Source: Altererythrobacter xiamenensis (GTDB lineage Bacteria; Pseudomonadota; Alphaproteobacteria; Sphingomonadales; Sphingomonadaceae). From it: DNA of 64,000 nt. Both the position numbers and the translations under genes were made by a program. Numbering within the stretch: the first letter of the stretch is position 1; the number at the start of each line of letters is the position of its first letter. Below the pieces are notes generated by a model, which made no database searches, had not been told where the DNA came from, and saw only the letters and a program-made list of their open reading frames with translations. Shown piece by piece: positions 21,163 to 48,213 of the stretch. The DNA is taken from contig NZ_FXWG01000002.1 in the NCBI RefSeq assembly GCF_900177715.1, forward strand, positions 930,001 to 994,000, read 5' to 3'.

Positions 21163-21260
21163 GCCTCCGCCATCGCATCCTTGAGTTTCGTCAGAGCCTG
21201 TCCGCGCAACTGATGGATGCGCGGGACGCTCACCTCAAGCACCTGAGAGATCTCGGTGAG
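21159..21260 (-). pseudogene. Sigma-28 (FliA-like) C-terminal remnant
   Basis: The minus strand from 21260 to 21159 encodes 33 residues, LTEISQVLEVSVPRIHQLRG followed by QALTKLKDAMAEA and a TAG stop. This is the helix-turn-helix of sigma region 4 with the normal C-terminus of flagellar-type sigma factors. Upstream the frame continues only with unrelated sequence, and no start is present. A shift between ...DNDNRSL and LTEIS (a CTCAGTTCTC duplication near 21265) suggests a small insertion. The rest of the gene is missing. It is likely the decayed end of a fliA-like gene. Confidence 0.5.
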
Positions 21261-21428
21261 AACTGAGCGAGCGGTTATCGTTGTCCGGTATATTCCTTCG
21301 CGTCATTTCCTCTTCGCCCAACACTAAACTCACGTATTTCCTTAGCTTGATGGTAAAGTACTCCACAGTTCGCGGAGCTAATTCCTGCCGAGAAGTCGCA
21401 GCCTTGGGGCGCCTCACACGCATTCATT
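21261..21428. other. Gap without a recognisable gene
   Basis: Short minus-strand frames are open here, and one (about 21423-21290) contains APRTVEYFTIKLRK, faintly like a LuxR helix-turn-helix, but it has no support from length or start signals. I see no terminator or RNA. Confidence 0.4.
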
Positions 21429-22931
21429 TCAACTGGCCCGGCAGTGCTTCTCGATATAGTCGGCATGGCTTGGCAGTCCGGCGACGGCACGCTCGATGAT
21501 CTGGCGGACGTCCCCAAGGAAACTGCCAAGCTGCTCATCCGAAAGCTTATCCGCCATCGGATTGTAATCCTGCGGCATGATGCCTTGTCCCAGCATCACC
21601 TGCGCCCAGCTCGCATCGCGGAACAGGTCGTCCGCGTCGCGCCCGATCCGTCCGGATGCGGCGAACAGTTCCATCTTGTGACGCAGCGGCTCGGGCACGT
21701 CCATGTGCTTGCAATAGCGCCAGAACTCGGAATCCTCGCGGTCGGTCTGGTGGTAGTGCAGGATGAGGAAGTCGCGGATCTGCTCGAATTCGGCCACGGT
21801 GCGGCGGTTGTATTCATCGCGGTCGGCATCGCGAATGCGCTCGCGCGGGAACAGCTCTATCAGGCGCCCGACGTTCGACTGGATTAAGTGGATGCTGGTG
21901 GACTCGAGTGGTTCGAGGAACCCGCTGGATAGCCCGATCGCGACGCAATTGTGCGACCAGAAGGCCTCGCGCCGTCCGGTGGTGAAGCGGATCGGGCGCG
22001 GATCGCCTGTTGCCGGCGTGTCGAGATTGTCGAGCAGGATCGTCGCCGCTTCGTCATCCGACAGGAACTCGCTGCAATAGACATGGCCGTTTCCGGTGCG
22101 ATGCTGGAGCGGAATGCGCCACTGCCATCCAGCGGTTCGCGCGGTCGCGCGGGTAAAGGGCGGCAGGTCGGGCAGGCGCTCGCTCGGCACCGCTTGTGCG
22201 CGGTTGCACGGAAGCCATTTGGACCAGTCCCGATATTCGACGCCCAGTTCCGACCCAAGCAGCAACGAGCGAAAACCGGTGCAATCGATAAAGAAATCGC
22301 CTTCGATCTTGGCGCCCCTATCCAGCGTGATCGCCGCGATATCCCCGCTCTCGCCGTCGCGTTCTACCGACTGGACGATGCCTTCCGTACGCGTGACGCC
22401 GTTGGTCTCGGAAAAATGCCGCAGATAACGCGCATAAAGCCCGGCATCGAAGTGATATGCGTAGGCAAGCCCGGTCATCGATGTCTTTCCGACCCGATCG
22501 AGATGCGCAAACTTGCCTTGCTGAGCGGCTAGCTGGTGCAGCGAGTAGTGCCACAGCGACTTGTCGCCGCCCTGCATCGCCTGCCGCCGCCAGTAATGGT
22601 GGAAGTGCACATTGCCGAGGTTAATCCCGGCATCGCCGAATGTGTGGAGGTAGCGTGAACCGATCTGCGACCAGTCGACGAACTCGATTCCCAGCTTGAA
22701 CGTGCCGTTGGTCTGCCTGACGAAATCCGCCTCGTCGAAGCCGAGGATCGTGTTGAGGCGGATGATCTGCGGAATGGTCGCCTCGCCCACGCCGACTGTG
22801 CCGATCGTCTCGGACTCGACCAGTTCGATCGACAGCCTCGGCCCGATGAGGCGGGAGAATGCGGCAGCCGCAATCCATCCGGCGGTTCCCCCGCCGACGA
22901 TGACCAGTTTCCGTATGCCTTGCTCTCCCAT
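21429..22931 (-). CDS. Flavin-dependent (tryptophan-type) halogenase 1
   Basis: The 500-residue protein belongs to the tryptophan-halogenase family. It has the FAD motif IVGGGTAGW (residues 11-19), the GWQWRIP motif (268-274) that keeps flavin halogenases from acting as monooxygenases, Lys79 in TFKLGIEFVDW at the same number as the catalytic Lys79 of PrnA/RebH, and a glutamate in EPLESTS (Glu343) matching PrnA Glu346. The residues needed for chlorination or bromination are present. Members of this group often stand beside TonB receptors in Caulobacterales and Xanthomonadales, with substrates mostly unknown. It follows the DUF6445 gene by 12 bases, so both are probably one transcript, divergent from the TonB receptor. 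Confidence 0.9.
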   Translation of the reverse strand: MGEQGIRKLVIVGGGTAGWIAAAAFSRLIGPRLSIELVESETIGTVGVGEATIPQIIRLNTILGFDEADFVRQTNGTFKLGIEFVDWSQIGSRYLHTFGDAGINLGNVHFHHYWRRQAMQGGDKSLWHYSLHQLAAQQGKFAHLDRVGKTSMTGLAYAYHFDAGLYARYLRHFSETNGVTRTEGIVQSVERDGESGDIAAITLDRGAKIEGDFFIDCTGFRSLLLGSELGVEYRDWSKWLPCNRAQAVPSERLPDLPPFTRATARTAGWQWRIPLQHRTGNGHVYCSEFLSDDEAATILLDNLDTPATGDPRPIRFTTGRREAFWSHNCVAIGLSSGFLEPLESTSIHLIQSNVGRLIELFPRERIRDADRDEYNRRTVAEFEQIRDFLILHYHQTDREDSEFWRYCKHMDVPEPLRHKMELFAASGRIGRDADDLFRDASWAQVMLGQGIMPQDYNPMADKLSDEQLGSFLGDVRQIIERAVAGLPSHADYIEKHCRAS

Positions 22932-22943
22932 GCGCGTCTTTCT

Positions 22944-23834
22944 TCAGGATTGCGGTGGCGGACGCAAGAATGCGTTGATCGTGTAACGGCCCTTGCGCGG
23001 GTCGGGGGAGAGCGACGCGTCATTGTCGATCACGCCGCTGTGCAGCAGATTGCCGCGATAGAAGACCGCCTGGTTGAAGGTGCCCGGCGTCTGGTACGTG
23101 CGGGTGAAATGCGGCGCGCCATCGGTGATGTAGCGACGGGGCGGCAGGCCAGTCCGCGCAACGTCCGCTTCGAGTGCAGCCTTGTATCGCGGGAAGGTTT
23201 TTGCGGTCAGCGCATCGAGTCCGGTGGAATTGTGCTGGAAGAAAGCCGTCCCGCCATGAGGGGTGTGATCGAGATAGAGCATCATCGCGAACTGATCGGG
23301 GTCGGTGCCGTCGACATGCGGGAAACACTGGATTGGCTGCAAGTCACCCGGCGGGGTCGAAACGATCGAATGCCATGCGATCATCGACCATGCGCCTTGG
23401 GGGTAACCGAAGGTTTGCGAGAGCACGGGCGACAGTGCCGCCGACCATGCTTCGAGAACTTCAGGATCGAGCGCCGCGCGGAGCCCTGGATATTGCGGAG
23501 TAATCTTTGCAAAATTTTGCAAAGTTGCATCGTCAATCACCTCGTCCGGCGATTTGAGAAAGCCGTCGATCGCCAGGTATGCATGTGCACCGGATGCAAA
23601 ATGTCCGACCTCGAACTGGCCCGTCTGGATCGCGTAGCAACTCATATCGATGAATGTTCTGCCTGCAATTCCCACCCGGCGCAATGCCTGGAGAATCACG
23701 GCTCCGCGCTCGTCGGCCGACGGAATATCAAGGCAAGCAACTGATCTAAAGGCCGGAATCTGCGTGGCAAAATATCGCTGCGTGATCTGATGCCCGGTTA
23801 TCCGATCGCGCGGGTTTTGTGGCTCGCGTGACAC
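22944..23834 (-). CDS. DUF6445-family protein, 2OG-oxygenase-like residue pattern
   Basis: The product has about 296 residues from a GTG at 23834, which I prefer because the codons upstream (to an ATG at 23939) look non-coding and overlap an operator; the start is uncertain. The family commonly accompanies tryptophan halogenases and TonB receptors. I see the metal-site pattern of Fe(II)/2-oxoglutarate oxygenases: CFPHVDGTD (H173, D175), then YRGNLLHSGV (H265) and RYTINAFL (R283, 18 residues after the histidine), within a region predicted to be beta-rich. This is inference and needs a profile search. A perfect 20-bp palindrome lies inside the gene at 23505-23524. Confidence 0.75.
   Translation of the reverse strand: MSREPQNPRDRITGHQITQRYFATQIPAFRSVACLDIPSADERGAVILQALRRVGIAGRTFIDMSCYAIQTGQFEVGHFASGAHAYLAIDGFLKSPDEVIDDATLQNFAKITPQYPGLRAALDPEVLEAWSAALSPVLSQTFGYPQGAWSMIAWHSIVSTPPGDLQPIQCFPHVDGTDPDQFAMMLYLDHTPHGGTAFFQHNSTGLDALTAKTFPRYKAALEADVARTGLPPRRYITDGAPHFTRTYQTPGTFNQAVFYRGNLLHSGVIDNDASLSPDPRKGRYTINAFLRPPPQS
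23505..23524. promoter_or_regulatory. Perfect 20-bp palindrome inside the DUF6445 gene
   Basis: CTTTGCAAAATTTTGCAAAG is identical to its reverse complement. It lies within coding sequence (codons for LQNFAKI). It is much more AT-rich than its surroundings and has the form of a LacI- or similar-family operator, but its spacing differs from the 16-bp motif near the promoters. Confidence 0.35.
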
Positions 23835-23928
23835 ATTTTTCACTCTTCGCTGTGGAGCTATGCAGACGGTGTCTCGCGCAAAAATCAGCCAAATTATTGA
23901 TTTATTGGGCGAAAATTCACCCGACTTG

Positions 23929-23944
23929 TGCATACGCATGCGCA
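23929..23944. promoter_or_regulatory. Operator-like 16-bp motif upstream of the TonB receptor
   Basis: TGCATACGCATGCGCA lies between the divergent DUF6445 and TonB receptor genes, about 90 bases before the receptor start. Its reverse complement matches the motif at 33026-33041 at 13 of 16 positions. The form suits the LacI-family regulator encoded in this locus. Confidence 0.5.
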
Positions 23945-24031
23945 GCTTTTCTGCATTTACGAAAACGTGATTTGCCGTTATGAAAAAAGATGCAAAATAT
24001 GGACTCAGAGGGTCTGATGGGGAGGTTTGAA

Positions 24032-26797
24032 ATGCGAAGAACAGGATTTTCTGCGAACGCGCGGCTGCTCTGCGGTGCCGCCACCGGCATGGCGTTGCTG
24101 GTCAGCGGTGCCCCGGCATTTGCTCAGGATAGCGATGCGGACGAGGGTGAGGAAAACACCATCGTCGTCACCGGTATCCGCAGCGCAATCGAGAACTCGC
24201 TCGATGCGAAGCGCGAATCGTCGAGCATCGTCGAAGTCATTTCGGCAGAAGACATCGGCAAGCTGCCCGATCTCTCGATCGCCGACTCGCTGGCTCGCCT
24301 GCCCGGCGTGACCGCACAGCGCGTGCGTGGCCGTTCGCAGCAGATCTCGATCCGCGGCCTCGGCCCCGACTTCTCGCTGGCACTGCTCAATGGCCGCGAA
24401 GTCGTGTCGGCAGGCAACAACCGCGGTATCGAGTTCGACCAGTTCCCGTCGGAACTCATTGCGCAGGGTATCGTCTACAAGACCCCCGATGCGCGCCTTT
24501 CGGCAACCGGCATCGCCGGCGCGGTCGATCTGCGGACGATCCGCCCGCTCGATTACAACGAGACCAAGATCAACATGTCGGCCCGCTACGTCATCAATGA
24601 CGCGGGTAAGCTCAACCCCGATTTCTCTGACCAGGGCTATCGCTTCTTCGGATCGTACATCGGTCAGAACGATGCCGGCACGGTTGGCTGGTCGCTGGGC
24701 GTTACCCACCAGTCGAACCCGACGCAGTTCATCTCGCGTGAGCTCAAGACCAACCAGTTCCAGGTTTCGCGCGACGCCAACGGTCTGCTCTACCCGTCGG
24801 ACAACCCGCGCCAGGGCGTCGTCTCGCGCGATTTCGAGCGGACCTCGATTGCAGGTGCCCTCCAGTTCGAACCGAGCGACCGTTTCCAGCTGACGCTCGA
24901 TGCCTTCTACACCGACACGCAGGATTCGGGCATCTTCCGTGGTACGGAAACGCCCATCGCTTCGTGGAGCGGCGCAAGCTTCGACAGCGCAACCGGTTCA
25001 GGTCCCTTTGCCGACACCGCGACCTATACCGCTGTCGTGCCGATCCTGCGCACCGATACCGAGGGTAACGAGGCGGAGATCTTCGCCGCCGGTGCGAACC
25101 TGAGCTACGAAGTAACTAACCGTCTGAGCCTTGAGGTCGACTACGGCTATTCGACTCTCGATCGCAACGACATCGACTACGAATCCTACGCCGGTACGGG
25201 CTTCGCGCGCTCGGGCGCGCAGGACACGCTGACCTTCACCATGCCCGACGATGGTCGCTATTCGATCGCGTCGCAGCTGGATTACACCGATCCGGGCACG
25301 GTCCTGCTAACCGATCCGGGCGGCTGGGGACAGGTCGGCTTCATCAAGGAACCGATCATCGAGGACGAGCTTCACCAGCTGCGCGCCGAAGTCGATTACG
25401 CCCTTGATGCGGGCATCCTGTCGAGCGTCACTCTCGGCTGGATCTACAAGGACCGCGAGAAGAACTTCGACTCGAACGAAGGCTTCATCCGCCAGTCCCC
25501 CGGCTTCACCAACGGCTCGCTTGCGATCCCCTCGGACGCCATCATCGGTTCGACCAATACCAAGTCACTGGGCATGGACATCATCGCCTATGACCCGTCG
25601 AACTTCTTTGAAGACGGCACCTATGTCTACGAGAAGGCGACCTTCGACACGCAGTGGAGCGTCGCGGAAGAGATCCACACCTTCTACGGCATGATCAACC
25701 TCAACGGCGACCTCGGTTCGATCCCGCTGCGCGGCAACATCGGCGTCCAGTATGTCGATACCAAGCAGTCCTCGACCGGGACCATCGGCGGTGGTCTGAC
25801 CAACCAGGTTTCGGACAGCTACGATCACTGGTTGCCGAGCGTGAACCTCTCGTTCGAGGTGGCCAACGATACCTTCGTCAAGATGGCCTTTGCCAAAACG
25901 CTGACCCGTCCGCGGCTCGACCAGCTGGCGGCGAACCAGAACATCACGGTCAACCCGCTAAGCTGTACCGACACCGATGGCGACCAGATCCCCGACACGG
26001 TGATCGCCTTCAATCCGCCGCAGCTCACCTGCTTCAACCTCGGTGGCGGCAACCCGCAGCTGCGGCCATATCGCTCGACGTCATATGACATCTCCTTCGA
26101 GAAGTACTTCTCGCGCACATCGGCGCTTGCCGTGGCGGTGTTCCACAAGGACCTGTCCGACTGGGTCATCCAGTTCAGCGACACGATCGATATCGAGCAG
26201 CAGATCATCAATGCCGGGTTCGGCAACATCCTGCAGACCGCGCCTGAGCTGGCGACCGCTTCCTTCAACGGTCCGGTCAACTTCTCGAGCGGGAAGATCA
26301 CCGGCGTCGAAGCAACCCTGCGGCTCGACTTCGCGGATTTCACCGATGCATTCGACGGCTTCGGTGGCAGCTTCAGCTACACCTATGCCGATGCCGAAGT
26401 GGAAGATGCGAACGGCGATCCGCTCGACATTCCGGGATATTCGGAGAACGTGTGGTCGGCCGACCTCTTCTACGAGAAGGCCGGCTTCCAGGGTAAGCTG
26501 AGCGCGCGTCATCGCAGCGGCTTCCTGTCCGAAGTTCAGAACTTCGACGGCAGTCTTTCGGGCGCGCAGGCGCTCAGCGAAACGATCCTCGACGCCCAGA
26601 TCGGCTACACCTTCGAGGACCGCGATGGTTGGCTCGACGGCTTCGGCATCCAGTTCGAAGTCTTCAACCTGACCAACGAGCCCTTCGTGACCGAGAACGC
26701 CCTGCTCGATACGGGCGGCAACCAGATCGGCACCTTCCCAAGCCGGCACGAGGTCTACGGACGCACCTATAACGTGACGATCAAGAAAGAGTTCTGA
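24032..26797 (+). CDS. TonB-dependent outer-membrane receptor for malto-oligosaccharides
   Basis: This 921-residue receptor starts at the ATG preceded by GGGGAGG at six bases. It has a signal peptide (APAFA-QD, residues 27-33), a TonB box (NTIVVTGIR, residues 42-50), a plug with SSSIVEVISAEDIGKLPDLS and SQQISIRGLGPDFS, and a 22-stranded barrel ending in NVTIKKEF with the usual terminal aromatic residue. It would carry substrate across the outer membrane using TonB energy. Maltose or starch fragments are inferred from the amylase and glucosidase genes in the same locus. It is divergent from the DUF6445/halogenase pair and ends at a terminator shared with halogenase 2. Confidence 0.93.
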   Translation: MRRTGFSANARLLCGAATGMALLVSGAPAFAQDSDADEGEENTIVVTGIRSAIENSLDAKRESSSIVEVISAEDIGKLPDLSIADSLARLPGVTAQRVRGRSQQISIRGLGPDFSLALLNGREVVSAGNNRGIEFDQFPSELIAQGIVYKTPDARLSATGIAGAVDLRTIRPLDYNETKINMSARYVINDAGKLNPDFSDQGYRFFGSYIGQNDAGTVGWSLGVTHQSNPTQFISRELKTNQFQVSRDANGLLYPSDNPRQGVVSRDFERTSIAGALQFEPSDRFQLTLDAFYTDTQDSGIFRGTETPIASWSGASFDSATGSGPFADTATYTAVVPILRTDTEGNEAEIFAAGANLSYEVTNRLSLEVDYGYSTLDRNDIDYESYAGTGFARSGAQDTLTFTMPDDGRYSIASQLDYTDPGTVLLTDPGGWGQVGFIKEPIIEDELHQLRAEVDYALDAGILSSVTLGWIYKDREKNFDSNEGFIRQSPGFTNGSLAIPSDAIIGSTNTKSLGMDIIAYDPSNFFEDGTYVYEKATFDTQWSVAEEIHTFYGMINLNGDLGSIPLRGNIGVQYVDTKQSSTGTIGGGLTNQVSDSYDHWLPSVNLSFEVANDTFVKMAFAKTLTRPRLDQLAANQNITVNPLSCTDTDGDQIPDTVIAFNPPQLTCFNLGGGNPQLRPYRSTSYDISFEKYFSRTSALAVAVFHKDLSDWVIQFSDTIDIEQQIINAGFGNILQTAPELATASFNGPVNFSSGKITGVEATLRLDFADFTDAFDGFGGSFSYTYADAEVEDANGDPLDIPGYSENVWSADLFYEKAGFQGKLSARHRSGFLSEVQNFDGSLSGAQALSETILDAQIGYTFEDRDGWLDGFGIQFEVFNLTNEPFVTENALLDTGGNQIGTFPSRHEVYGRTYNVTIKKEF

Positions 26798-26912: not shown

Positions 26913-28430
26913 TCAGGCGTGCGGGCTCTTGCAATGCTGCGCGAGGAAATCGGCGTGTGCGGGCATCTGCGCGACGGCATCCTGCATCGCCTTGCTGATC
27001 GCGGCGAAGCGGTCGGCGACAGGCACCTCTTCGCGCAACTTGGCGATGGCTGGCGCGCGCCGGGGTTCGATCCCCTGACCCAGATAGACCGCGATCCAGC
27101 TGGGGTTATTGAACAACTCGCGCTCGTCCGACACCAGCATTCCGTAATTGCGGAAGTGATCGATCTTGTACTGGAGGCTGTCGGGGATATCCATCGCGGC
27201 GCAATATCGCCACAGCTCGGAATCGTCACGCTCGGTCGCCTTGTAGTGCAGGATCAGGAAGTCGCGGATCCGCTCGTACTCGGCAGCGGTCTGCCGGTTA
27301 TATTCTTCGGCCAGAAGCGGCGACATCTCGCTGTCAGGGAAGAGCGCGAGCAGCCTCAAAATACCGTACTGGATCAGGTGCAGACTCGTCGATTCCAGCG
27401 GCTCCATGAACCCCGCGGAAAGACCGATGGCGACGCAGTTCTTCGCCCAGAAAGCGCGGCGTTTGCCGGTAACGAAGCGAAGGGTTCGCGGCTCGGCCAG
27501 CAATTCGCCCACGATCGAGGAAACCAGTGTTTCGGTCGCCTCGTCCTCGCTCACATACTCGGTGCAATGCACATAGCCGTTTCCAGTGCGGTGCTGTAGC
27601 GGAATTCGCCACTGCCACCCGGCTGCCTTGGCGGTCGAGCGGGTGTAGGGCGAGATGGTTTCGCCGCGTGCGCTGGGTACGGCCACGGCGCGATCGCACG
27701 GCAGCCAGTGTTGCCAGTTGTCGTATCCCGCCTTCAACGCATCTTCGATCAGCAGTCCGCGGAAGCCGCTGCAATCGATGAACAGCTCGGCTTCGAATGC
27801 GCGACCGTCTTCCAGGGTGACGCTGGCAATCGCGCCGCTTTCACTGTCGAGCGTGACGCCGACGACCTTGCCTTCGACCCGTGTGACACCGCGCTGTTCG
27901 GCGTAGCCGCGCAGGAAGCGTGCATATAGTGTCGCGTCGAAGTGATAGGCGTAGTCATAAGTCGACTGGATCTGCCGCCGATCGGGGAGGGGAGGGGCGA
28001 ATTTGCCCGCCTTCGACATCGCCCAGGCCATCGAGAAGTCGTCGATCGGGCCGTCGATCCGTCCGGCGAGGCTTTCGCGCATCCAGTAATGGTAGAAGGG
28101 CACCTGATCGAACTCGGCACCGTGCTGGCCGAACGGATGGAAATAGCTGTGACCGAGGCGCCGCCAGTCGACGAACTCGATCCCCAGTTTGAAGGAACCT
28201 GCGGTCTCGCGGATGAATGTCGCTTCATCGATGCCGAGGCGCTGGTTGAAATAGCGGATCGGCGGGATCGTCGCTTCGCCCACGCCGACAGTGCCGATCA
28301 TTTCGGATTCGATCAGCGTGATGTCGACGCGTGGTCCCAGCGCATCCGATAGCGCCGCCGCCGTCATCCAGCCCGCACTGCCCCCTCCGACGATGCAGAT
28401 TTGCCTGATGGGGGCGAATTGCGATGCCAA
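26913..28430 (-). CDS. Flavin-dependent (tryptophan-type) halogenase 2
   Basis: This 505-residue protein is a paralogue of the halogenase at 21.4 kb. It has IVGGGSAGW (residues 13-21), Lys81 in SFKLGIEFVDW, GWQWRIP (271-277) and Glu346 in EPLESTS, all at positions matching the active halogenase PrnA. The two copies differ clearly in sequence, so they are not a recent duplication and may act on different acceptors. It is the last gene of a four-gene leftward operon after the amylase, the glucosidase and LacI, with only 29 bases after LacI. Co-expression with sugar-degrading enzymes is therefore likely. Confidence 0.9.
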   Translation of the reverse strand: MASQFAPIRQICIVGGGSAGWMTAAALSDALGPRVDITLIESEMIGTVGVGEATIPPIRYFNQRLGIDEATFIRETAGSFKLGIEFVDWRRLGHSYFHPFGQHGAEFDQVPFYHYWMRESLAGRIDGPIDDFSMAWAMSKAGKFAPPLPDRRQIQSTYDYAYHFDATLYARFLRGYAEQRGVTRVEGKVVGVTLDSESGAIASVTLEDGRAFEAELFIDCSGFRGLLIEDALKAGYDNWQHWLPCDRAVAVPSARGETISPYTRSTAKAAGWQWRIPLQHRTGNGYVHCTEYVSEDEATETLVSSIVGELLAEPRTLRFVTGKRRAFWAKNCVAIGLSAGFMEPLESTSLHLIQYGILRLLALFPDSEMSPLLAEEYNRQTAAEYERIRDFLILHYKATERDDSELWRYCAAMDIPDSLQYKIDHFRNYGMLVSDERELFNNPSWIAVYLGQGIEPRRAPAIAKLREEVPVADRFAAISKAMQDAVAQMPAHADFLAQHCKSPHA

Positions 28431-28459: not shown

Positions 28460-29488
28460 CTAGCCGCCGCAGCTCTCGCGAATGAGCAGGCTGGTCTCGG
28501 TCCTGTCGGACATGGGCACCTTGCCCTGCGCATCCATCAGCTTCGATACCAGCAGGCGACCGGCAAGCCCGGTATCCTGGTCGATCGTGGTCAGGCGCGG
28601 TGTGATGTAGCGCGAGGCAGGGATATTGTCGTATCCTACGACCGAGACGTCGCCTGGGACGGAAACCCCTGCTCGCGTGAGAGCGCGGATAGCGCCAATC
28701 GCGATGAGATCAGACGCAGCAAAGACCGCGTCGAACTTCAGGCCGTTGTCGAGCGCGGCGCGGGTCGCGCTTTCAGCCGAGTGAACGTCGAAATGCGCCG
28801 GGATTGTCAGCTCTTCGGTGAAGGCGATATCGGCCTTCTCGAGCGCGCGGCGATACCCGCGATGGCGCTGTTCCATCTCGGGAGCCTCGGTGTCACCGAG
28901 AAACAGGATGCGCTGGCGACCCAGCCTGACGAGGTGCGAGGCCGCGCGTTCTCCCCCGAGCAGATTGTCCGAACCGATCGAGCAATATTCCGCATCGCGA
29001 AAGTTCGCGCCCCACACGACAAAGCGCGTGTCGAGCTTGGCCAGGCGGTTGAAGGCGTGGTGGAACGAGCTTTGTCCAATGAAGATCACGCCCGTCGCGC
29101 GGCTGGTTGCCAGAGCGTATTCGAGGTGTTCTTCCGAAGTCGGAGTGAGATGGCTGACCAGCACATCGGCATTGCGGTCTCTCGCCGCTTCGGTGATCCC
29201 GGCGAGGAGTTCGAGCAGGAACGGGTCAGCCAGCCTCGTTTCGCGCGCCTGTGGTGCGGGCACGACGACCGCAATGGTCGCTTCGGCACCGATCGGCCCC
29301 TTGGGCATGGAAAGACGGAAATCGTAATCGTGCTCGCGCGCGATTGTCCAGATCGCCTGCTTGGTCCGGCGGTTTACAGCAGGATGGTCGTTGAGAGCGC
29401 GCGAAACGGTCGAGATCGACACGCCCGCTTCCCGCGCAATGTCTTCCAGTCTCGCGCCCTTGGCCTTCGCTGGATCCCTCGTCGCCAT
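28460..29488 (-). CDS. LacI-family transcriptional regulator
   Basis: The 342-residue product has a LacI-type helix-turn-helix at residues 14-33 (LEDIAREAGVSISTVSRALN) and a periplasmic-binding-protein-like effector domain. I chose the ATG at 29488 because it overlaps the glucosidase stop codon as TAATG. It is encoded inside the sugar operon, so it is the natural regulator of the locus and probably binds the 16-bp motifs at 23929 and 33026. The effector is probably a malto-oligosaccharide, by context. Confidence 0.92.
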   Translation of the reverse strand: MATRDPAKAKGARLEDIAREAGVSISTVSRALNDHPAVNRRTKQAIWTIAREHDYDFRLSMPKGPIGAEATIAVVVPAPQARETRLADPFLLELLAGITEAARDRNADVLVSHLTPTSEEHLEYALATSRATGVIFIGQSSFHHAFNRLAKLDTRFVVWGANFRDAEYCSIGSDNLLGGERAASHLVRLGRQRILFLGDTEAPEMEQRHRGYRRALEKADIAFTEELTIPAHFDVHSAESATRAALDNGLKFDAVFAASDLIAIGAIRALTRAGVSVPGDVSVVGYDNIPASRYITPRLTTIDQDTGLAGRLLVSKLMDAQGKVPMSDRTETSLLIRESCGG

Positions 29489-31149
29489 TATGCCCCCGCT
29501 TGCATCCTGGAGGCCCAATAGCCCGACATCGGGGGCAAGGTCGATGGTATTTGCTGATCGGGGGCAAACCCGGTGTCGGATGCGACCGCTGACCATACGC
29601 CCGGGGCTCCGGGCTCCCAGTCGACGGCGCCATCGCCCAGATTGAAAGCGCAGAGCACATCGCCCGAGGGATCCGTCCTGACAAAGGCAACCACGTCGGC
29701 CGGACTGTCGAGCAATTCGAGGTCACCGCTTGCCAGCGCAGGAAACTGCTTGCGGACCGCGAGCAGTCGGCGGGTGAAGCTGAGCATCGACGCCGGATCA
29801 CTGCCTTGCGCATCGACCGCCAACGGCTTGTGCGCCTCGTCCAGTTTGAGCCATGCGCTCGTGCCGCTGGTGAAGCCGCCGCCGCTTGCGCCTGCTTCCC
29901 ACGGGATCGGCGTACGCGCACCGTCACGGCCGAGCGTGTGCGGCCAGTTGGCGATTGCCTCGGGATCCTGCAGGTCTTCGAAGGCGACATGCGCCTGCGG
30001 CAGAGCGAGCTCTTCGCCCTGATAGATGAAGGCGTTGCCGCGCAGCGCCGTCAGCAGCAGCATCATGGTGCGGGCCGTTCGGGCTGCGGTCGCTTCATCG
30101 CTCCAGCGCGTGATCGCGCGCGGCGCGTCATGGTTCGAGAAAGCCCAGGATGGCCAGCCTTCGCCCTTATCGCCGCTCCACTGCGCCAGCGATCGCTTGA
30201 CCAGCGGCGCGGTGAGCTTCTCGGCATAGAGGAAGTCGAAATTATAGGCGCTGTCGAGCCGTGTATCGCCCTCGGTAAAGGCCTTCATTTCGGCAAGCGG
30301 TTCCGGCCCGCCGACTTCCGCGACGGTAAAGCGCGCCGGATATTCGTCCATCACTCCGCGGATTCGCTCGATGAATGCGGTGATGTCGGGATGCGACTGA
30401 TTGTACACCTTCAGTTGCATGTCGAACGGGCGGGTCACCGCTTCCATTGGAGCACCCGAAGGCGGATTGTCGCGCAACTGTGGGTCGTGCATCGCGAAGT
30501 TGATCGCATCGAGCCGGAAGCCATCGACCCCGCGGTCGAGCCAGAACCGCGCGGCATCGAGCACCGCGTCCTGTACCTCGCGATTGTGCAGGTTGAGGTC
30601 GGGCTGGCTCTTGAGGAAATTGTGCAGATAATACTGCTTGCGCGGCCCGTCCCATTGCCAGGCCGATCCGCCAAAGACCGATTGCCAGTTGGATGGCGGG
30701 GAGCCGTCCGGCTTGGCGTCGGCCCAGACATACCAGTCGGCCTTGGGATTGGTGCGATCGCGGCGGCTCTCCTGAAACCACGCGTGCCGGTCGGAGGTGT
30801 GCGAATAGACCTGGTCGATGATGACCTTGAGGCCGAGGCCGTGGGCCTTTTCTATGATCCGGTCGAAGTCGTCGAAATCGCCGAAGCTCGGGTCGATCCC
30901 GCAATAATCCGATACGTCATAGCCGAAATCGTCCATCGGCGAAGTGAAGAAGGGCGAGATCCACACGCCGTCCACCCCGAGCGAAGCGATGTGGTCGAGA
31001 CCTTCGACGATACCGCCAAGGTCGCCGATCCCGTCACCATTGGTATCGCGAAAGCTGCGCGGATAAATCTGGTAGAAGACCGCGCCGCGCCACCATTCTG
31101 CGGTGTCGGGCAAGGCGCTCTTGCGGTCAATGGGCGAGGCGTGGCTCAC
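29488..31149 (-). CDS. GH13 alpha-glucosidase
   Basis: The 553-residue protein carries the GH13 regions in order: DGVWISPFF, IIDQVYSHTSD, VDGFRLDAINF (nucleophile Asp), FTVAEVGG (acid/base Glu) and SNHDAPR (transition-state Asp). The serine-histidine version DQVYSHTS is typical of the oligo-1,6-glucosidase/alpha-glucosidase subgroup. No signal peptide is visible, so it should act in the cytoplasm. I chose the GTG at 31149 over a TTG at 31185 because it starts five bases after the amylase stop. It hydrolyses malto-oligosaccharides to glucose and is coupled to the LacI gene by TAATG. Confidence 0.9.
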   Translation of the reverse strand: MSHASPIDRKSALPDTAEWWRGAVFYQIYPRSFRDTNGDGIGDLGGIVEGLDHIASLGVDGVWISPFFTSPMDDFGYDVSDYCGIDPSFGDFDDFDRIIEKAHGLGLKVIIDQVYSHTSDRHAWFQESRRDRTNPKADWYVWADAKPDGSPPSNWQSVFGGSAWQWDGPRKQYYLHNFLKSQPDLNLHNREVQDAVLDAARFWLDRGVDGFRLDAINFAMHDPQLRDNPPSGAPMEAVTRPFDMQLKVYNQSHPDITAFIERIRGVMDEYPARFTVAEVGGPEPLAEMKAFTEGDTRLDSAYNFDFLYAEKLTAPLVKRSLAQWSGDKGEGWPSWAFSNHDAPRAITRWSDEATAARTARTMMLLLTALRGNAFIYQGEELALPQAHVAFEDLQDPEAIANWPHTLGRDGARTPIPWEAGASGGGFTSGTSAWLKLDEAHKPLAVDAQGSDPASMLSFTRRLLAVRKQFPALASGDLELLDSPADVVAFVRTDPSGDVLCAFNLGDGAVDWEPGAPGVWSAVASDTGFAPDQQIPSTLPPMSGYWASRMQAGA

Positions 31150-31153
31150 GCGG

Positions 31154-32998
31154 TCAGTACTCCGATTTGCAGACAAGATAGCCAAGAGCGGGGATGGTCA
31201 ATTGATAGGCACCTGGGGCGGGCGAGGTGGGGGCGCAATTGCCGCTCAGCGATTGCCATTGCAGCGCGCGTCCGTCCACTGCGAAGGAGACCGTGCGGTC
31301 CTTCGTGCCATTGTTGAAGGCGACGACGATCTCGCCGCTGTCGTCCGGGGCGAGGCGCGACATGACGAAGGCATGGCCGTCATGCTCGGCCAGGCGGACG
31401 ACCTGCTCTCCGCGGCGCAGGGCAGGCTCGGCGAGGCGGAGCCGCGCCATGTCGCCGATGGCGCGGTAGAGCGGATGGTCGGTATCGAAGTTGTCATCGC
31501 CGACCGTCGCATCGGTGCCGATCAGGTCATTATCGAGATAGACCTTTGTCGCGCCCGGAAACATGGTTTCGCGCGCCGCCTGATCATTGCCGTCCGAAAT
31601 GAAGCCCTGCTCGTCGCCATAATAGATCGTCGGCACGCCGCGCGAGAACATCATCATCGCATGGCCGAGCAGAATGCGGGTTTGCATCTCCTCGTCGGAG
31701 GCATTTTCGTTTTCCTCGCGCACGAACATGGAGAAACGGCCCATGTCGTGATTGCCGAGGAAGGTCGGCAGTTGCTTGGCGGTGGCAAATCCCTCGGCAT
31801 AGACCGCGTCCGCGCCGAACAGGCGCTCGAGCGACTTGCTCGGCTGGCCTTCCGCCACCAGCCCGCGCACGGTGCCCTGAAACGCGAAATCGAGCACGGT
31901 CGGCAGTTTGGCGATGGTTGTGAACTTCGCGAGATGCGCGGGTTCGAACTCGTAGACTTCGCCGAACATGTGGAAGTTCTCGATGCCCTCCGCCTCGGCA
32001 TGGTCGAGGATGGCGGGCGCGAATTGCTGCCAGAATTCCATGTTCACGTGCCTGGCGGTGTCGATGCGGAAACCGTCGACGCGGAAGTCGGTGATCCACT
32101 GCTTGTAGATGTCGATGAAGCCTTCGACCACGCGCGGGTTCGACGTCATCAGGTCGTCGAGGCCGGAGAAGTCTCCCAGCACCGCGCTGTCGCCCTCCCA
32201 GAAGCTGTCGCCGCGGTTGTGATAGAGCGTGACAACATTGAGCCACGCGGGGTTCTTCACGTTGCGCTCGTGCGGTTCGACATAGGGCGTATAGGCGTAG
32301 TTCGGATTGGTCAGCCGCGCGTAGTTCTCCTGCGTCTGGTGCTTGGCCTGCGTGCCGAGAAAGCCATCGTTGATTCGCTCGCCGTCAGGACCGCCGAGCG
32401 TCGTGTAGGGATAGTCTCCTTCGGAGCGATAGGGACAGGTGAAGGTGTCGCGGTACTTGGCAGGTGCACCGGGTCCATGGCACTCGGCGTTCTTGATGAC
32501 GTCAGCGGTGTGGTTGGTGATGATGTCCATGTAGACCTTCATCCCGCGTGCATGGGCGGCCTCGACCAAAGCCTTGAAATCTTCTCGTGTGCCGATGTGC
32601 GGATCGACATTGAGGAAATCGGTAATCCAGTAGCCGTGATAGCCTGCGGACTCGTTGCCCTTCGGCCCTTGCACCGGCTTGTTCTCGAAGATCGGGGTCA
32701 GCCAGATCGCGGTAACGCCGAGGCCCTGGATATAGTCGAGCCGCTGCATCAGCCCCTTCAGATCGCCGCCCTGGTAGAATCCCTTGTGCTTCGGATCGAA
32801 GCCGTGATCGAGGCGGTCTCCTTCGATCCCGCCGCGATCATTGGCCACATCGCCATTTTCGAATCGGTCGGGCAGGACAAAGTAAATGACTTCGTCTTCC
32901 GGAAGGCGATCGGGCTGCGTGTCATGCGGTTCGTTTGCATGTGCCGCTGCACTTATGATCGCGGCAACGCTGGCCATGGCCACTACGACCGATTTCAT
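31154..32998 (-). CDS. Secreted GH13 alpha-amylase
   Basis: The 614-residue product has a signal peptide (ISAAAHA-NEP, cleavage near residue 21), so it acts outside the cytoplasm. The GH13 motifs are VTAIWLTPIF, VYMDIITNHTADV (region I), VDGFRIDTARHV (region II, nucleophile), FHMFGEVYEF (region III, acid/base) and FLGNHDMGRF (region IV). The start at 32998 has a GGAGGG ribosome-binding site. It is the first gene of the leftward operon with the glucosidase, LacI and halogenase 2, and is divergent from the GH97 gene. It probably cleaves starch or maltodextrin in the periplasm or outside. Confidence 0.92.
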   Translation of the reverse strand: MKSVVVAMASVAAIISAAAHANEPHDTQPDRLPEDEVIYFVLPDRFENGDVANDRGGIEGDRLDHGFDPKHKGFYQGGDLKGLMQRLDYIQGLGVTAIWLTPIFENKPVQGPKGNESAGYHGYWITDFLNVDPHIGTREDFKALVEAAHARGMKVYMDIITNHTADVIKNAECHGPGAPAKYRDTFTCPYRSEGDYPYTTLGGPDGERINDGFLGTQAKHQTQENYARLTNPNYAYTPYVEPHERNVKNPAWLNVVTLYHNRGDSFWEGDSAVLGDFSGLDDLMTSNPRVVEGFIDIYKQWITDFRVDGFRIDTARHVNMEFWQQFAPAILDHAEAEGIENFHMFGEVYEFEPAHLAKFTTIAKLPTVLDFAFQGTVRGLVAEGQPSKSLERLFGADAVYAEGFATAKQLPTFLGNHDMGRFSMFVREENENASDEEMQTRILLGHAMMMFSRGVPTIYYGDEQGFISDGNDQAARETMFPGATKVYLDNDLIGTDATVGDDNFDTDHPLYRAIGDMARLRLAEPALRRGEQVVRLAEHDGHAFVMSRLAPDDSGEIVVAFNNGTKDRTVSFAVDGRALQWQSLSGNCAPTSPAPGAYQLTIPALGYLVCKSEY

Positions 32999-33025
32999 GC
33001 TTTTCCCTCCCGCGCTAAACCGCAT

Positions 33026-33041
33026 TGCGCATATGTTTGCA
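33026..33041. promoter_or_regulatory. Operator-like 16-bp motif between amylase and GH97 genes
   Basis: TGCGCATATGTTTGCA is an imperfect dyad in the 139-base divergent gap, 28 bases from the amylase start. It matches the reverse complement of the motif at 23929-23944 at 13 of 16 bases. Binding here could control both the amylase operon and GH97. Confidence 0.5.
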
Positions 33042-33137
33042 TAATTTCTCATAGAGAAACCAGCTTAAAATGTGTTACGAGGTGGAAAACAAGCATTCCT
33101 TTGCAGTTTTTTGCAGGAATCAATCCGGGAGTTGGAA

Positions 33138-35210
33138 ATGCATCGTCTTTTGTCCGCCATGGTGCCAGTGTTTCTCGTGGCGATATCGTTCTCGCAGCCG
33201 GTCTCTGCCGAGGAGACGGTGACCTCTCCCGATGGCCGTATCACGGTGACGGTCGACGTGAATGGCGAGGGGCGACCCTTCTACCGGATCGATCTCGATG
33301 GCGCAGCGGTGCTGACCGAGAGTCGCCTGGGGTTTCTCTTGGCAGACCAGGACAAGCTCGAACGGCGCCTCGCGGTCATCGCGGCGGAGGCTTCCAGCCA
33401 TGACGAGACATGGGAGCAGCCCTGGGGCGAACGGCGTTTCGTGCGCGACCATCACAACCAGCTCACGGTGCGGTTCGAAGAAGACAGCGATGAGAAACGC
33501 CGCTTCGGCGTGACCTTCCGCGTCTTCGATGACGGAGTGGGCTTCCGCTACCTGTTCGACGATTCCAGCGTGGGCGAGACACTGCGTGTCGCGGACGAGC
33601 TGACCGAATTCAATCTTGCGCAGGACGGCACGGCCTGGTGGATCCCGGGCGGCGAGTGGAATCGCTACGAATATCTCTACGAGAAAACGCCGATCAGCGG
33701 CGTCTCGATGGCGCATACGCCGCTCACCTTCCGCATGGAGAACGGCACCCATGTCGCTATCCACGAGGCGGCACTGGTCGACTTCGCCGGCATGTGGGTG
33801 AAGCGCACGACCGGCACCAATTTTCGCGCGACGCTGACCCCGACGGGTTCAACCGCTGCGCGCGCGATGCGCGACATTCCCTTCGCCACGCCCTGGCGCA
33901 CGATCCGCGTTTCGGACGATGCGGCGGGCCTTGCGATGAGCGACATCGAATTGAACCTCAACGAGCCCAACAAGCTGGGCGATGTCAGCTGGTTCAAACC
34001 GCACAAATATGTCGGCGTGTGGTGGTCGCTCCACCTCGACGAGGAGAGCTGGGGCCTCAACTCCGGCTCGGGATCGGATGCGAGCTTCACGGCGAAGAAG
34101 CACGGCGCGACGACCGAAAACGTCAAGCGCTACATCGATTTCGCCGCCGAGCATGGCTTCGAAGGCGTGCTGGTCGAAGGCTGGAACATCGGCTGGGACG
34201 GCAACTGGTTCTTCAACGGAAAGCTGTTCAGCTTCACCGAAAGCTATCCCGACTACGACTTCGCCGAGCTCGCCCGCTATGCCGCCGAAATGGGCGTGCC
34301 GATCGTCGGCCACCACGAGACTTCGGGCGATATCGGCAATTACGAAAGCCAGCTTGCCGATGCGCTCGACCTGATGGCGGAGCGCGGCGTGAAGACGATC
34401 AAGTCGGGTTACGTCACCGATGCCTGCAATTTGCGCTATGTTCATCCGGATGGCCGCGAGACGCGCGAATGCGTCGAAAGCCAGGTGATGACCAATCATC
34501 ACATCATGGTCGTGAAAGAGGCGGCCAAGCGGAAGATCGCGATGAACCCGCACGAACCGGTGAAGGGCACGGGCCTGCGCCGCACCTATCCCAACTGGGT
34601 CAGCCGTGAGGGGGCGCGAGGCATGGAGTTCAATGCCTGGGGCGTCCCGCCGAACGGGCCGAGCCATGTGCCGACCATGGTCTTCACCCGCATGCTGTCG
34701 GGCCCCATGGACTATACGCCGGGTGTGCTGAGCCTCGAGGGGCGCGGTCAGCCGCTCCAGATGACGAAGGCGCGCGCGCTCGCCGAATATGTCGTGATCT
34801 ATTCGCCGATCCAGATGGCGGCCGATCTGCCCGAGCACTATGCCGAGGCGATGGACGCCTTCCAGTTCATCAAGGACGTGCCGACGGATTGGTCGGAAAG
34901 CCTTATCCTTGATGCCGAAGTCGGGGAATATGTCGTCACCGCGCGCAAGGACCGGAATAGCGAAGAATGGTTCCTTGGCGGAGCGACGGACGAGCAGGCG
35001 CGCGACACCGCCGTCTCGCTCGACTTTCTCGATGCTGGCACGGCCTATCGCGCCGAGATCTATCGCGATGGCGCGAATGCGCATTTCGAAGGCGAGGGCC
35101 GCTTCGACATCGTCATCGAAACGCGCGAAGTCAGCAGCGCCGACACGCTCGACCTGCGCATGGCGCCGGGCGGCGGATACGCGGTACGGCTGGTTCCCCT
35201 CTCTCGCTGA
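33138..35210 (+). CDS. GH97 alpha-glucosidase (SusB-like)
   Basis: The 690-residue protein has a signal peptide (QPVSA-EET, residue 24) and matches GH97 with the N-terminal beta-sandwich, the catalytic barrel containing EGWNIGWDGNWFFNG and IVGHHETSGDIGNYESQLAD, and the motif GLRRTYPNWVSREGARG. GH97 contains inverting alpha-glucosidases such as Bacteroides SusB, and the conserved glutamates support an inverting mechanism here. The start has GGGAG at seven bases. It is divergent from the amylase operon and completes a periplasmic route from starch to glucose. Confidence 0.92.
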   Translation: MHRLLSAMVPVFLVAISFSQPVSAEETVTSPDGRITVTVDVNGEGRPFYRIDLDGAAVLTESRLGFLLADQDKLERRLAVIAAEASSHDETWEQPWGERRFVRDHHNQLTVRFEEDSDEKRRFGVTFRVFDDGVGFRYLFDDSSVGETLRVADELTEFNLAQDGTAWWIPGGEWNRYEYLYEKTPISGVSMAHTPLTFRMENGTHVAIHEAALVDFAGMWVKRTTGTNFRATLTPTGSTAARAMRDIPFATPWRTIRVSDDAAGLAMSDIELNLNEPNKLGDVSWFKPHKYVGVWWSLHLDEESWGLNSGSGSDASFTAKKHGATTENVKRYIDFAAEHGFEGVLVEGWNIGWDGNWFFNGKLFSFTESYPDYDFAELARYAAEMGVPIVGHHETSGDIGNYESQLADALDLMAERGVKTIKSGYVTDACNLRYVHPDGRETRECVESQVMTNHHIMVVKEAAKRKIAMNPHEPVKGTGLRRTYPNWVSREGARGMEFNAWGVPPNGPSHVPTMVFTRMLSGPMDYTPGVLSLEGRGQPLQMTKARALAEYVVIYSPIQMAADLPEHYAEAMDAFQFIKDVPTDWSESLILDAEVGEYVVTARKDRNSEEWFLGGATDEQARDTAVSLDFLDAGTAYRAEIYRDGANAHFEGEGRFDIVIETREVSSADTLDLRMAPGGGYAVRLVPLSR

Positions 35211-45762: not shown

Positions 45763-48213
45763 ATGACGAAGTGGCTAGGAGCGGCGAGCTGGAGCGCCAA
45801 GGAAGCGCGCGCGGGGGAGCGATTGCCCTACGCGGGGCTGGTCGACGACCGCACGATTCTGCTGCGCGACGGCAGCGTGATGAGCGTGATCCAGGTGCCC
45901 GGCCTGTTGTTCGAAACCGAGGATACCGCAAGCCTCAACGCCCATGCGGCAACTCGCGAAGTGATGCTGCGCTCGGCGCTCGATTCCCGTTTCGTGATGT
46001 ATCACCACGTGATCCGTCGGCGGGTCGAAGTCGAGCTCGATGCCGAGTTCGACGATGCGCTTTCGGGCCATATCGACGCGCGCTGGAAAGAGCGGCTGGC
46101 AGGCGGTTCGCTGTTCATCAACGACCAGTTCATCACGCTGATCCGCCGTCCGGCACGCGGCAAGGCGGGCCTTGTCGAGCGCGCACAGCGCAAGTTCTCG
46201 CGTCGTGGCGGCGAGATCGAGGCCGACCCCAAGGATCTGCGTGCGCTGCAATCTGCGGTCACCGGCATCGTCGCTTCGCTGTCCTCCTATGGCGCAGCGG
46301 TGCTGGGCGATTACGCGAATACGAGCACGGGTGCAGCGGGCGGGACCAATTCGGAACTCCTCGAGCTGCTCTCGGCGCTCTACAATGGCGAGATGCGCCC
46401 CGTGCGCCGTCCGGCGGACGATGTCGATATCGGCGACATGCTGCCTTATCGTCGCGCCAGCTTCGGCCTCGATGCGATGGAACTGCGCGGTTCGGGCGCG
46501 CCCGATTTCGCTGCGATCCTCGGCCTCAAGGATTATCCCGAGGCGACGTCTCCGGGCCTGCTCGACAATCTGCTGCGTCTGCCGTTCGAAATGGTCATCA
46601 CGGAAAGCTACGCGCCGACCGAGCGAACCACGGCGAAGGAACGGATCGACCTCGCCCTGCGCCGCTTGCGCTCTGTGGACGAGGAAGCGGCTGCGGAGCG
46701 CGCCGACATGCTTTCTGCACGCGATGCGTTGGGCAATGGCGCGGTCGGCTTCGGCGATCATCACCTCACCGTGCTGGTGCGCGAACGCAATCTGGAACGT
46801 CTCGACGAGGCGACCGCTGCCTGCGGTGCAGCTCTGGCCGATACGGGCGCGATCGCAGTGCGCGAGGATACCAATCTCGAGCCTGCCTTCTGGGCGCAAT
46901 TCCCGGGTAACGAGCGCTATGTCGTGCGCCGCGCGCTGATCTCCAGCGCCAACATGGCAAGCTTCGGTTCGCTCCACGGCTTCGCGCTGGGCCAGGCGAG
47001 CGGCAACCATTGGGGCGATGCGGTCACCTTGCTGGAAACCACCAGCGCCACGCCGTTTTTCTTCAATTTCCACCACGGCGACCTCGGCAATTTCTCGGTC
47101 ATCGGCCCCTCCGGCTCGGGCAAAACCGTGGTGATGAACTTCCTTGCCGCGCAGGCGCAGAAGTTCAGCCCGCGGACCATATTGTTCGACAAGGATCGCG
47201 GCGCAGAGCTGTTCATTCGCGGGATCGGTGGCCGCTACGACCGGATCGTTGCGGGTGAACCTTCGGGTTTCAACCCGCTCGCGCTGCCCGACACCCCCGC
47301 CAACCGCGCGTTCCTGCGTGACTGGCTGGCGGTGCTGCTCGAAGCGTCGGGGCCCGAAGAACTGTCGACCATCGCGCAGGCGGTCGATGCCACCTATGCC
47401 AATGACGCTTCGCTCCGCCGCCTGCGCCATTTCAAGGAATTGCTGTCAGGCACGAAGCGCCCGCAGCCGGGCGATCTGGCTGACCGGCTTTCCGCATGGA
47501 TTTCCGAAGGCGAGCATGGCTGGCTGTTCGACAACGAGCAGGACAGGCTCGATCTTGATCAGCGCGTGCTCGGTTTCGACATGACCGCGCTGCTGGAGAA
47601 CCCGCGCCTCAGGACCCCGGTGATGATGTACCTCTTCCACCGGATCGAGGAGCGCCTCGACGGCAAGCCGACCATGATCCTGATCGACGAGGGGTGGAAG
47701 GCGCTCGACGACGAGGTCTTCGCCGCGCGCATCCGCGACTGGCTCAAGACATTGCGTAAGCGCAATGCGCTGGTCGGTTTTGCCACGCAGTCGGCGCGCG
47801 ATGCGCTCGAAAGCCGGATTTCGACTGCACTGGTCGAACAGACCGCGACGATGATCTTCATGCCCAATGCCCGCGCGCGGGCCGAGGATTATTGCGACGG
47901 CTTCGGGCTCACCCAGCACGAGTTCGAACTTATCAAGTCGCTGCCCGCGCACAGCCGCTGCTTCCTCGTGCGTCAGCCTGACGCGAGCGTCGTGGTGCGG
48001 CTCGATCTGGGCGGCGCCCCCGAAGTGCTCACCGTGCTTTCGGGCCGCGAAGCATCGGTTCGCCGCCTTGACGGGTTGCGCGCTTCGCTTGGCGATGATC
48101 CCGAACAGTGGTTCCCCGCGCTCACCGGCCATTCCTGGCCCGGTACGGGTGAGGGCGAAGCTGATGACGGGCGAGGCCCGGGCGGCTATTCTATCCGGCA
48201 GGCCGCAGAATGA
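45763..48213 (+). CDS. virB4: VirB4-family ATPase
   Basis: The 816-residue protein has an N-terminal VirB4 region and a C-terminal AAA-type motor with Walker A GPSGSGKT (about residue 448) and Walker B MILIDEGWKAL (about residue 638). It should power assembly or transport. The stop overlaps the virB6 start as ATGA. Confidence 0.93.
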   Translation: MTKWLGAASWSAKEARAGERLPYAGLVDDRTILLRDGSVMSVIQVPGLLFETEDTASLNAHAATREVMLRSALDSRFVMYHHVIRRRVEVELDAEFDDALSGHIDARWKERLAGGSLFINDQFITLIRRPARGKAGLVERAQRKFSRRGGEIEADPKDLRALQSAVTGIVASLSSYGAAVLGDYANTSTGAAGGTNSELLELLSALYNGEMRPVRRPADDVDIGDMLPYRRASFGLDAMELRGSGAPDFAAILGLKDYPEATSPGLLDNLLRLPFEMVITESYAPTERTTAKERIDLALRRLRSVDEEAAAERADMLSARDALGNGAVGFGDHHLTVLVRERNLERLDEATAACGAALADTGAIAVREDTNLEPAFWAQFPGNERYVVRRALISSANMASFGSLHGFALGQASGNHWGDAVTLLETTSATPFFFNFHHGDLGNFSVIGPSGSGKTVVMNFLAAQAQKFSPRTILFDKDRGAELFIRGIGGRYDRIVAGEPSGFNPLALPDTPANRAFLRDWLAVLLEASGPEELSTIAQAVDATYANDASLRRLRHFKELLSGTKRPQPGDLADRLSAWISEGEHGWLFDNEQDRLDLDQRVLGFDMTALLENPRLRTPVMMYLFHRIEERLDGKPTMILIDEGWKALDDEVFAARIRDWLKTLRKRNALVGFATQSARDALESRISTALVEQTATMIFMPNARARAEDYCDGFGLTQHEFELIKSLPAHSRCFLVRQPDASVVVRLDLGGAPEVLTVLSGREASVRRLDGLRASLGDDPEQWFPALTGHSWPGTGEGEADDGRGPGGYSIRQAAE

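Follow-up and report, generated by a model that had tools for sequence, protein, structure and literature searches.

The Fe(II)/2-oxoglutarate (2OG) oxygenases are a well-known enzyme class, and the members most similar to the protein considered here are of the P4H-like kind, such as OGFOD1/Tpa1, LH3, the Pseudomonas P4H and PHD2, together with the Pfam family PF13640 (2OG-FeII_Oxy_3). The signature of P4H is YLN...GGE.F. An assignment of the family DUF6445 (PF20043) to this class was not found in print in the literature searched, as a full-text search, with most subscription papers outside its scope, returned nothing that names DUF6445 or PF20043. A second point of comparison is the flavin-dependent halogenase BrvH, in whose cluster another halogenase gene lies upstream, for which indole may not be the natural substrate, and for which the accessible part of the description names no 2OG-dependent partner (PMC5945002). 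A third is the maltose/maltodextrin CUT locus of Xanthomonas, where, according to the accessible part of the report, a receptor, a repressor and alpha-glucan enzymes occur together (PMC1790865); the words 'halogenase' and 'tryptophan' are absent from its main text. No literature was found on a pairing of a DUF6445-type oxygenase with a halogenase and a TonB receptor, in a search made partly on titles and the beginnings of abstracts and with most subscription papers outside its scope, and the accessible parts of PMC11909599 and PMC8269204 hold nothing on an association of oxygenases with halogenases. It is the recurrent pairing of DUF6445 with a halogenase that is the interesting part of the locus described below.

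The window analysed here, a stretch of 64,000 nucleotides from Altererythrobacter xiamenensis, carries what looks like an alpha-glucan CUT locus with a TonB receptor. The TonB-dependent receptor gene (23990..26797, plus strand; TIGR01782, 540.8 bits against a cut-off of 310) is divergent from the DUF6445 gene (22944..23645, minus strand). Beyond the receptor lie the genes for a LacI-type regulator (28460..29596, minus strand, longest ORF; PF00356 and PF13377), two alpha-amylase family enzymes matching PF00128, which we take to merit the GH13 label (29488..31185, minus strand, longest ORF, E=1.8e-120; and 31154..33052, minus strand, E=2.2e-67, with a hydrophobic, signal-like N-terminus by hydropathy), and a GH97 glycoside hydrolase (33072..35210, plus strand; PF10566, PF14508 and PF14509). 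Receptor, repressor and alpha-glucan enzymes are thus together as in Xanthomonas, and the window differs from the CUT loci in adding an oxygenase/halogenase pair. The pair is formed with flavin-dependent halogenase A (21429..22931, minus strand, 500 aa; PF04820, E=1.2e-182), which starts 12 bp after DUF6445; a second flavin-dependent halogenase (26913..28430, minus strand, 505 aa; PF04820, E=5.3e-190) brings the window to the two halogenase genes also seen in the BrvH cluster. Both proteins carry the FAD motif, WxWxIP and the regions of the catalytic Lys and Glu, and halogenase A contains GGGTAGW, WQWRIP, FKLGI and EPLEST, presumably the motifs expected of a flavin halogenase. The best matches among PDB sequences are 6y1w, 9luq and 6frl for halogenase A and 9luq, 6frl and 6y1w for the second enzyme, where 6y1w and 6frl are taken to be Xcc4156 and BrvH, respectively. 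Elsewhere in the window, at 45763-48213, a VirB4/TrbE-type conjugation ATPase (PF03135, PF19044) points to a region for type IV secretion or conjugation.

The minus strand holds an open reading frame running from 23834 to 22944, with a translation of 296 aa, and it was this entire frame that the original prediction treated as the gene. The frame and its residues stand, but its opening 63 codons (23834-23646) are probably non-coding, since the relatives found in 22 fetched loci, mostly Erythrobacter/Porphyrobacter and Sphingomonas-like, start at or near the position of ATG 23645, and an alignment of intergenic regions places an ATG column common to the window, L053, L062 and L063. On these alignments a start at ATG 23645, giving 233 aa, is more likely than one at GTG 23834. 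The GTG falls inside a conserved inverted repeat at 23835-23818 (minus-strand sequence TGTGTCACGCGAGCCACA), which was seen in an alignment of 10 related regions between the divergent receptor and DUF6445 genes and whose simple pattern is present in nine of them. Because the relatives begin at about ATG 23645 and GTG 23834 lies within this repeat, the segment 23646-23834 is probably regulatory rather than coding. The repeat (23818..23835) is a candidate regulator site, possibly for the LacI-type regulator. In six other loci (L054, L055, L057, L058, L060 and L061) a varied string resembling TTTGTTAGGCTC, possibly a promoter element, occurs just upstream of DUF6445; it is absent upstream of DUF6445 in the window, where a promoter scan of 21200-24100 gave no promoter-like site and terminator-like sites no more numerous than in shuffled sequence.

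The protein matches PF20043 at E=4.6e-61 (207 bits against a curated cut-off of 24), and it has no other Pfam match at E <= 1 and no match in NCBIfam. Translation of the frame puts H173, D175, H265 and R283 exactly where they had been predicted; counted from ATG 23645 these are H110, D112, H202 and R220. The bare pattern H.[DE].{50,120}H.{9,22}R turned up in 7554 of 20000 composition shuffles as well, and the motif by itself, having no significance alone, was dropped as evidence. Conservation is more telling. The regions that had looked conserved contain four residues that are identical in every row of three alignments: 19/19 in A1, which covers full-length and short forms of DUF6445 with two near-copies left out, 22/22 in A4, from which one broken frame was omitted, and 71/71 in a combined alignment in which the window protein, and one further place (L006 = L066), are present twice. 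The only other positions fully invariant in the 71 rows are G54, G132 and T133. The motif YL...GGT.F of DUF6445 resembles the YLN...GGE.F of P4H.

The original prediction, that DUF6445 may be an Fe(II)/2OG oxygenase, had called for a profile search, and the comparison of family profiles bears it out. DUF6445 aligns with PF13640, represented by 30 aligned proteins from the same class, at a probability of 93.6 and E=2.2e-7 over 169 columns, and H110, D112, H202 and R220 fall opposite the His, Asp, His and Arg of that family, so that the HxD...H metal triad of the Fe(II)/2OG oxygenase superfamily is in register along with the basic residue. Profiles of unrelated families gave E values of 0.049 (FDH_A), 0.64 (LacI), 0.39 (GH13a), 0.89 (GH13b) and 0.66 (TonB receptor), a reversed PF13640 profile gave 0.79, and the best of all controls, one of 30 column shuffles, reached 0.032. 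Single-sequence searches did not place DUF6445 within PF13640: the window protein was unlisted at E <= 1, and one of 19 members appeared at E 0.18. Among PDB sequences the window protein found nothing significant, only chance matches to ACE/ACE2; the A1 profile found only the 2OG hydroxylase PtlH, at a non-significant E=1.1, and the A4 profile unrelated chains only. The family 2OG-FeII_Oxy_5 (PF13759) drew weak matches from 6 of 19 DUF6445 members (best E 0.0024), but as the closest family it was dropped: its profile E of 0.0013 with A1 rose to 0.068 with a larger set, and the weak alignment sets D175 (D112 of the 233-aa protein) opposite a His. Given that the PDB sequence searches were null and PF13759 was unreliable, beside the profile match to PF13640, the sequence comparisons define DUF6445 as a separate family of the 2OG-oxygenase superfamily that is related to PF13640 and is not a member of it. 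As a side observation on these two families, five PF13759 and two PF13640 matches, one PF13640 overlapping PF13759, are listed for a segment of about 21 kb (G049, contig C10, 1831-22928) in a genome of 1.4 Mb, and by its domain content this segment is a 2OG-oxygenase gene cluster.

Structure prediction had also been proposed, with a fold lacking a double-stranded beta-helix named as the outcome that would count against an oxygenase. The AlphaFold2 model built on A4 (mean pLDDT 94.7, pTM 0.91) has the double-stranded beta-helix, as judged from its Foldseek and VIA-align matches, and its best matches are 2OG oxygenases. H202 is the first residue of strand 202-204, and R220, the residue aligned to the PF13640 Arg, opens the last core strand, 220-228. 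Foldseek returned 17 PDB matches at E <= 1e-3, including SnoN, SnoK, P4H, PHD2, OFD1, AlkB and TqaL as well as two uncharacterised proteins; the best of them (E=9.0e-5) is a DNA-lesion entry, presumably of the AlkB kind. Since TM-scores are modest, 0.25-0.50 over the query among the best 50 matches listed, DUF6445 is to be regarded as a distant relative. VIA-align placed OGFOD1 first (Z 14.0, 178 residues, 3.1 A, 12% identity), followed among others by PasI (Z 13.0), LH3 (13.0), the P. putida P4H (12.0) and PHD2 (11.5). The likeness to OGFOD1, LH3, P4H and PHD2 spans 162-178 residues at Z 11.5-14.0, with an identity of 12-14%. Against predicted viral proteins, the model gave 72 matches at E <= 1e-3, the best being an unnamed protein (E=1.7e-11, TM 0.65). 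What sets DUF6445 apart from the P4H-like enzymes is a segment some 40 residues long that separates strand 133-138 from strand 180-186, at about 139-179 and with a helix at 151-165, presumably specific to the family when compared with P4H structures, together with a His-to-Arg spacing of 18.

One could suppose that such a protein is another cupin-type metal protein with no dependence on 2OG, as human ADO, which we take to be a cupin thiol dioxygenase, is on the Foldseek list; its TM-score is low (0.25-0.27), however, and with all of HxD...H...R aligned to PF13640 at E=2.2e-7, and the 50 listed VIA-align entries being named or taken to be 2OG enzymes, or else putative oxygenases, this is a very improbable explanation. 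The profile comparison, the AlphaFold2 model and the structural matches agree, and for this reason DUF6445 is very probably a family of Fe(II)/2OG oxygenases near the prolyl and lysyl hydroxylases. The predicted fold and active site of DUF6445 are almost certainly those of a 2OG oxygenase, and it is likely to be an active Fe(II)/2OG enzyme. In the proposed mechanism H110, D112 and H202 would hold Fe(II) in the double-stranded beta-helix core, while R220, the residue that opens the last core strand, would bind 2OG at its distal carboxylate. In the reaction with O2, 2OG would be decarboxylated and the substrate most likely hydroxylated, and the insertion at about 139-179, with its helix 151-165, may perhaps cover the substrate. 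That the substrate is a protein or peptide is a tentative suggestion, drawn from the structural neighbours of the model, which include protein hydroxylases.

Hydroxylation is not dictated by the fold alone, and the fold and metal site might have been kept in a sensor, in a scaffold or in an enzyme of another 2OG reaction such as halogenation, epimerisation or desaturation; the epimerase SnoN and the carbocyclase SnoK are among the Foldseek matches, and VIA-align lists HalB, presumably a halogenase. Fe/2OG halogenases usually lack the acid of the HxD motif, but D112 is present in 71/71 rows, and the strict invariance of both His and of the Arg argues against a dead scaffold, so a departure from hydroxylase chemistry seems unlikely.

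A hydroxylase of this kind would be of interest mainly for the company it keeps. The original prediction spoke of a dioxygenase coupled to a halogenase in one transcript, and as gene order this part holds, both in the 12 bp gap of the window and in 11 of 22 related loci (L053-L063), where DUF6445 is directly upstream of a halogenase in the same orientation; the gaps there are about 5-52 bp and vary with the choice of start codon. As a property of the whole family it does not hold, because 13 of 32 full-length genes lack a halogenase in the 10 kb around them. Searches of the 22 loci with the window proteins (tblastn) gave a halogenase in 21, a receptor in 20 and an alpha-amylase-family gene in 19; one locus (L069) has none of the three, and some of the others are cut by contig ends. 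These figures overstate the link, as the loci were found with window-like sequences. A less biased count over 25 genomes, with halogenases accepted at E <= 1e-40, shows that 19 of the 32 full-length DUF6445 genes have a halogenase no farther than 10 kb away, where 0.68 would be expected from rounded genome sizes; none of 20000 simulations reached 19/32. A further 30 stretches with full-length or intermediate DUF6445 (L075-L104) contain a halogenase in 15 cases (tblastn). The coupling is thus common and not universal, given the 13/32 full-length genes and the ten short-form loci (0/10) that go without, and it follows that the DUF6445 enzyme must also work without a halogenase.

These exceptions raise the possibility that DUF6445 is a 2OG oxygenase unrelated to the halogenase, both being independent passengers of sugar loci with TonB receptors. 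Besides the 13 full-length genes that have no halogenase so close, the four halogenases for a single DUF6445 in the A. xiamenensis genome, and the genes that intervene between the two in L064-L074 wherever both are present, would suit such an account. It is harder to reconcile with the 10 of 32 genes that have a halogenase within 500 bp, and with the 11 of 22 loci where the two are immediate neighbours in the same orientation, and we would put it somewhat short of an even chance. That DUF6445 and the halogenase belong to one process wherever their genes are adjacent is somewhat more likely than not, for the pair recurs across loci devoted to different sugars: alpha-amylase-family and GH97 enzymes in the window, GH67 in L075 and GH97 in L099. 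Judged from hydropathy alone, DUF6445 and the halogenases do not resemble exported proteins, a weak indication that they should act in the cytosol. We have strong confidence in the reading of DUF6445 as a cytosolic Fe(II)/2OG oxygenase, one that is probably co-transcribed with the adjacent flavin halogenase and probably takes part in the same process; in the window the two would be expressed, probably from one transcript, opposite the TonB receptor of an alpha-glucan uptake locus.

As the receptor and the halogenase recur and the sugar does not, the modification would more likely bear on the machinery of uptake, or on a product common to these loci, than on a step specific to one sugar. In the A. 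xiamenensis genome two of the three receptors above the TIGR01782 cut-off adjoin a halogenase. The receptor was considered as a halogenase substrate by way of a conserved Trp, and this was rejected: in an alignment of 33 receptors (that of the window, 30 from the loci, not all near a halogenase, and two others of the A. xiamenensis genome), none of the Trp residues in the window receptor reaches 85% conservation, a result with which variable sites or Tyr remain compatible. It would be a bolder proposal, and a rather improbable one, that the halogenase and a DUF6445 hydroxylase make up a dedicated two-enzyme oxidative system acting on a shared peptide or protein of TonB-dependent carbohydrate uptake, for which the receptor precursor, SapC or an unseen peptide would be candidate targets. 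If true, the same two-enzyme system would be reused across different sugar loci, and uptake capacity would be linked to O2, iron and 2OG status. Two loci have SapC (PF07277) genes between halogenase and DUF6445, adjoining the latter (L083, 8662-9417; L087, 10152-10928). In three others at least three tandem halogenase genes, one of them short or divergent, lie close to a single DUF6445 gene and a TonB receptor (L086, 3555-9247; L075, 13746-19490; L093, 10195-15946).

With the oxygenase reading, a family of unknown function that is carried by 154 of the 396 genomes sampled in the order moves into a well-understood enzyme class with its catalytic residues named. BrvH-type halogenases, enzymes in search of a natural substrate (PMC5945002), gain a recurrent oxidative partner and a sugar-uptake setting, and their substrate should therefore be easier to look for; in gene clusters for sugar uptake the oxygenase and the halogenase, both modifying enzymes that use oxygen, may work jointly on a target.

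PF20043 is also present in 19 of 385 genomes sampled in the class and in 30 of 398 in the phylum. All of these counts cover two forms of the family, the full-length form and a short, divergent one, which in A1 retains each of the four catalytic residues. A part in the halogenase system was rejected for the short subfamily, in which neither a halogenase nor a TonB receptor was matched in any of ten loci (0/10 for each; L105-L114, tblastn with the window proteins, E <= 1e-6, within the fetched stretch). Since the short form keeps the residues and has no halogenase or receptor nearby, its role is a separate question. In one of these loci (L107) three short-form copies of DUF6445 stand in tandem.
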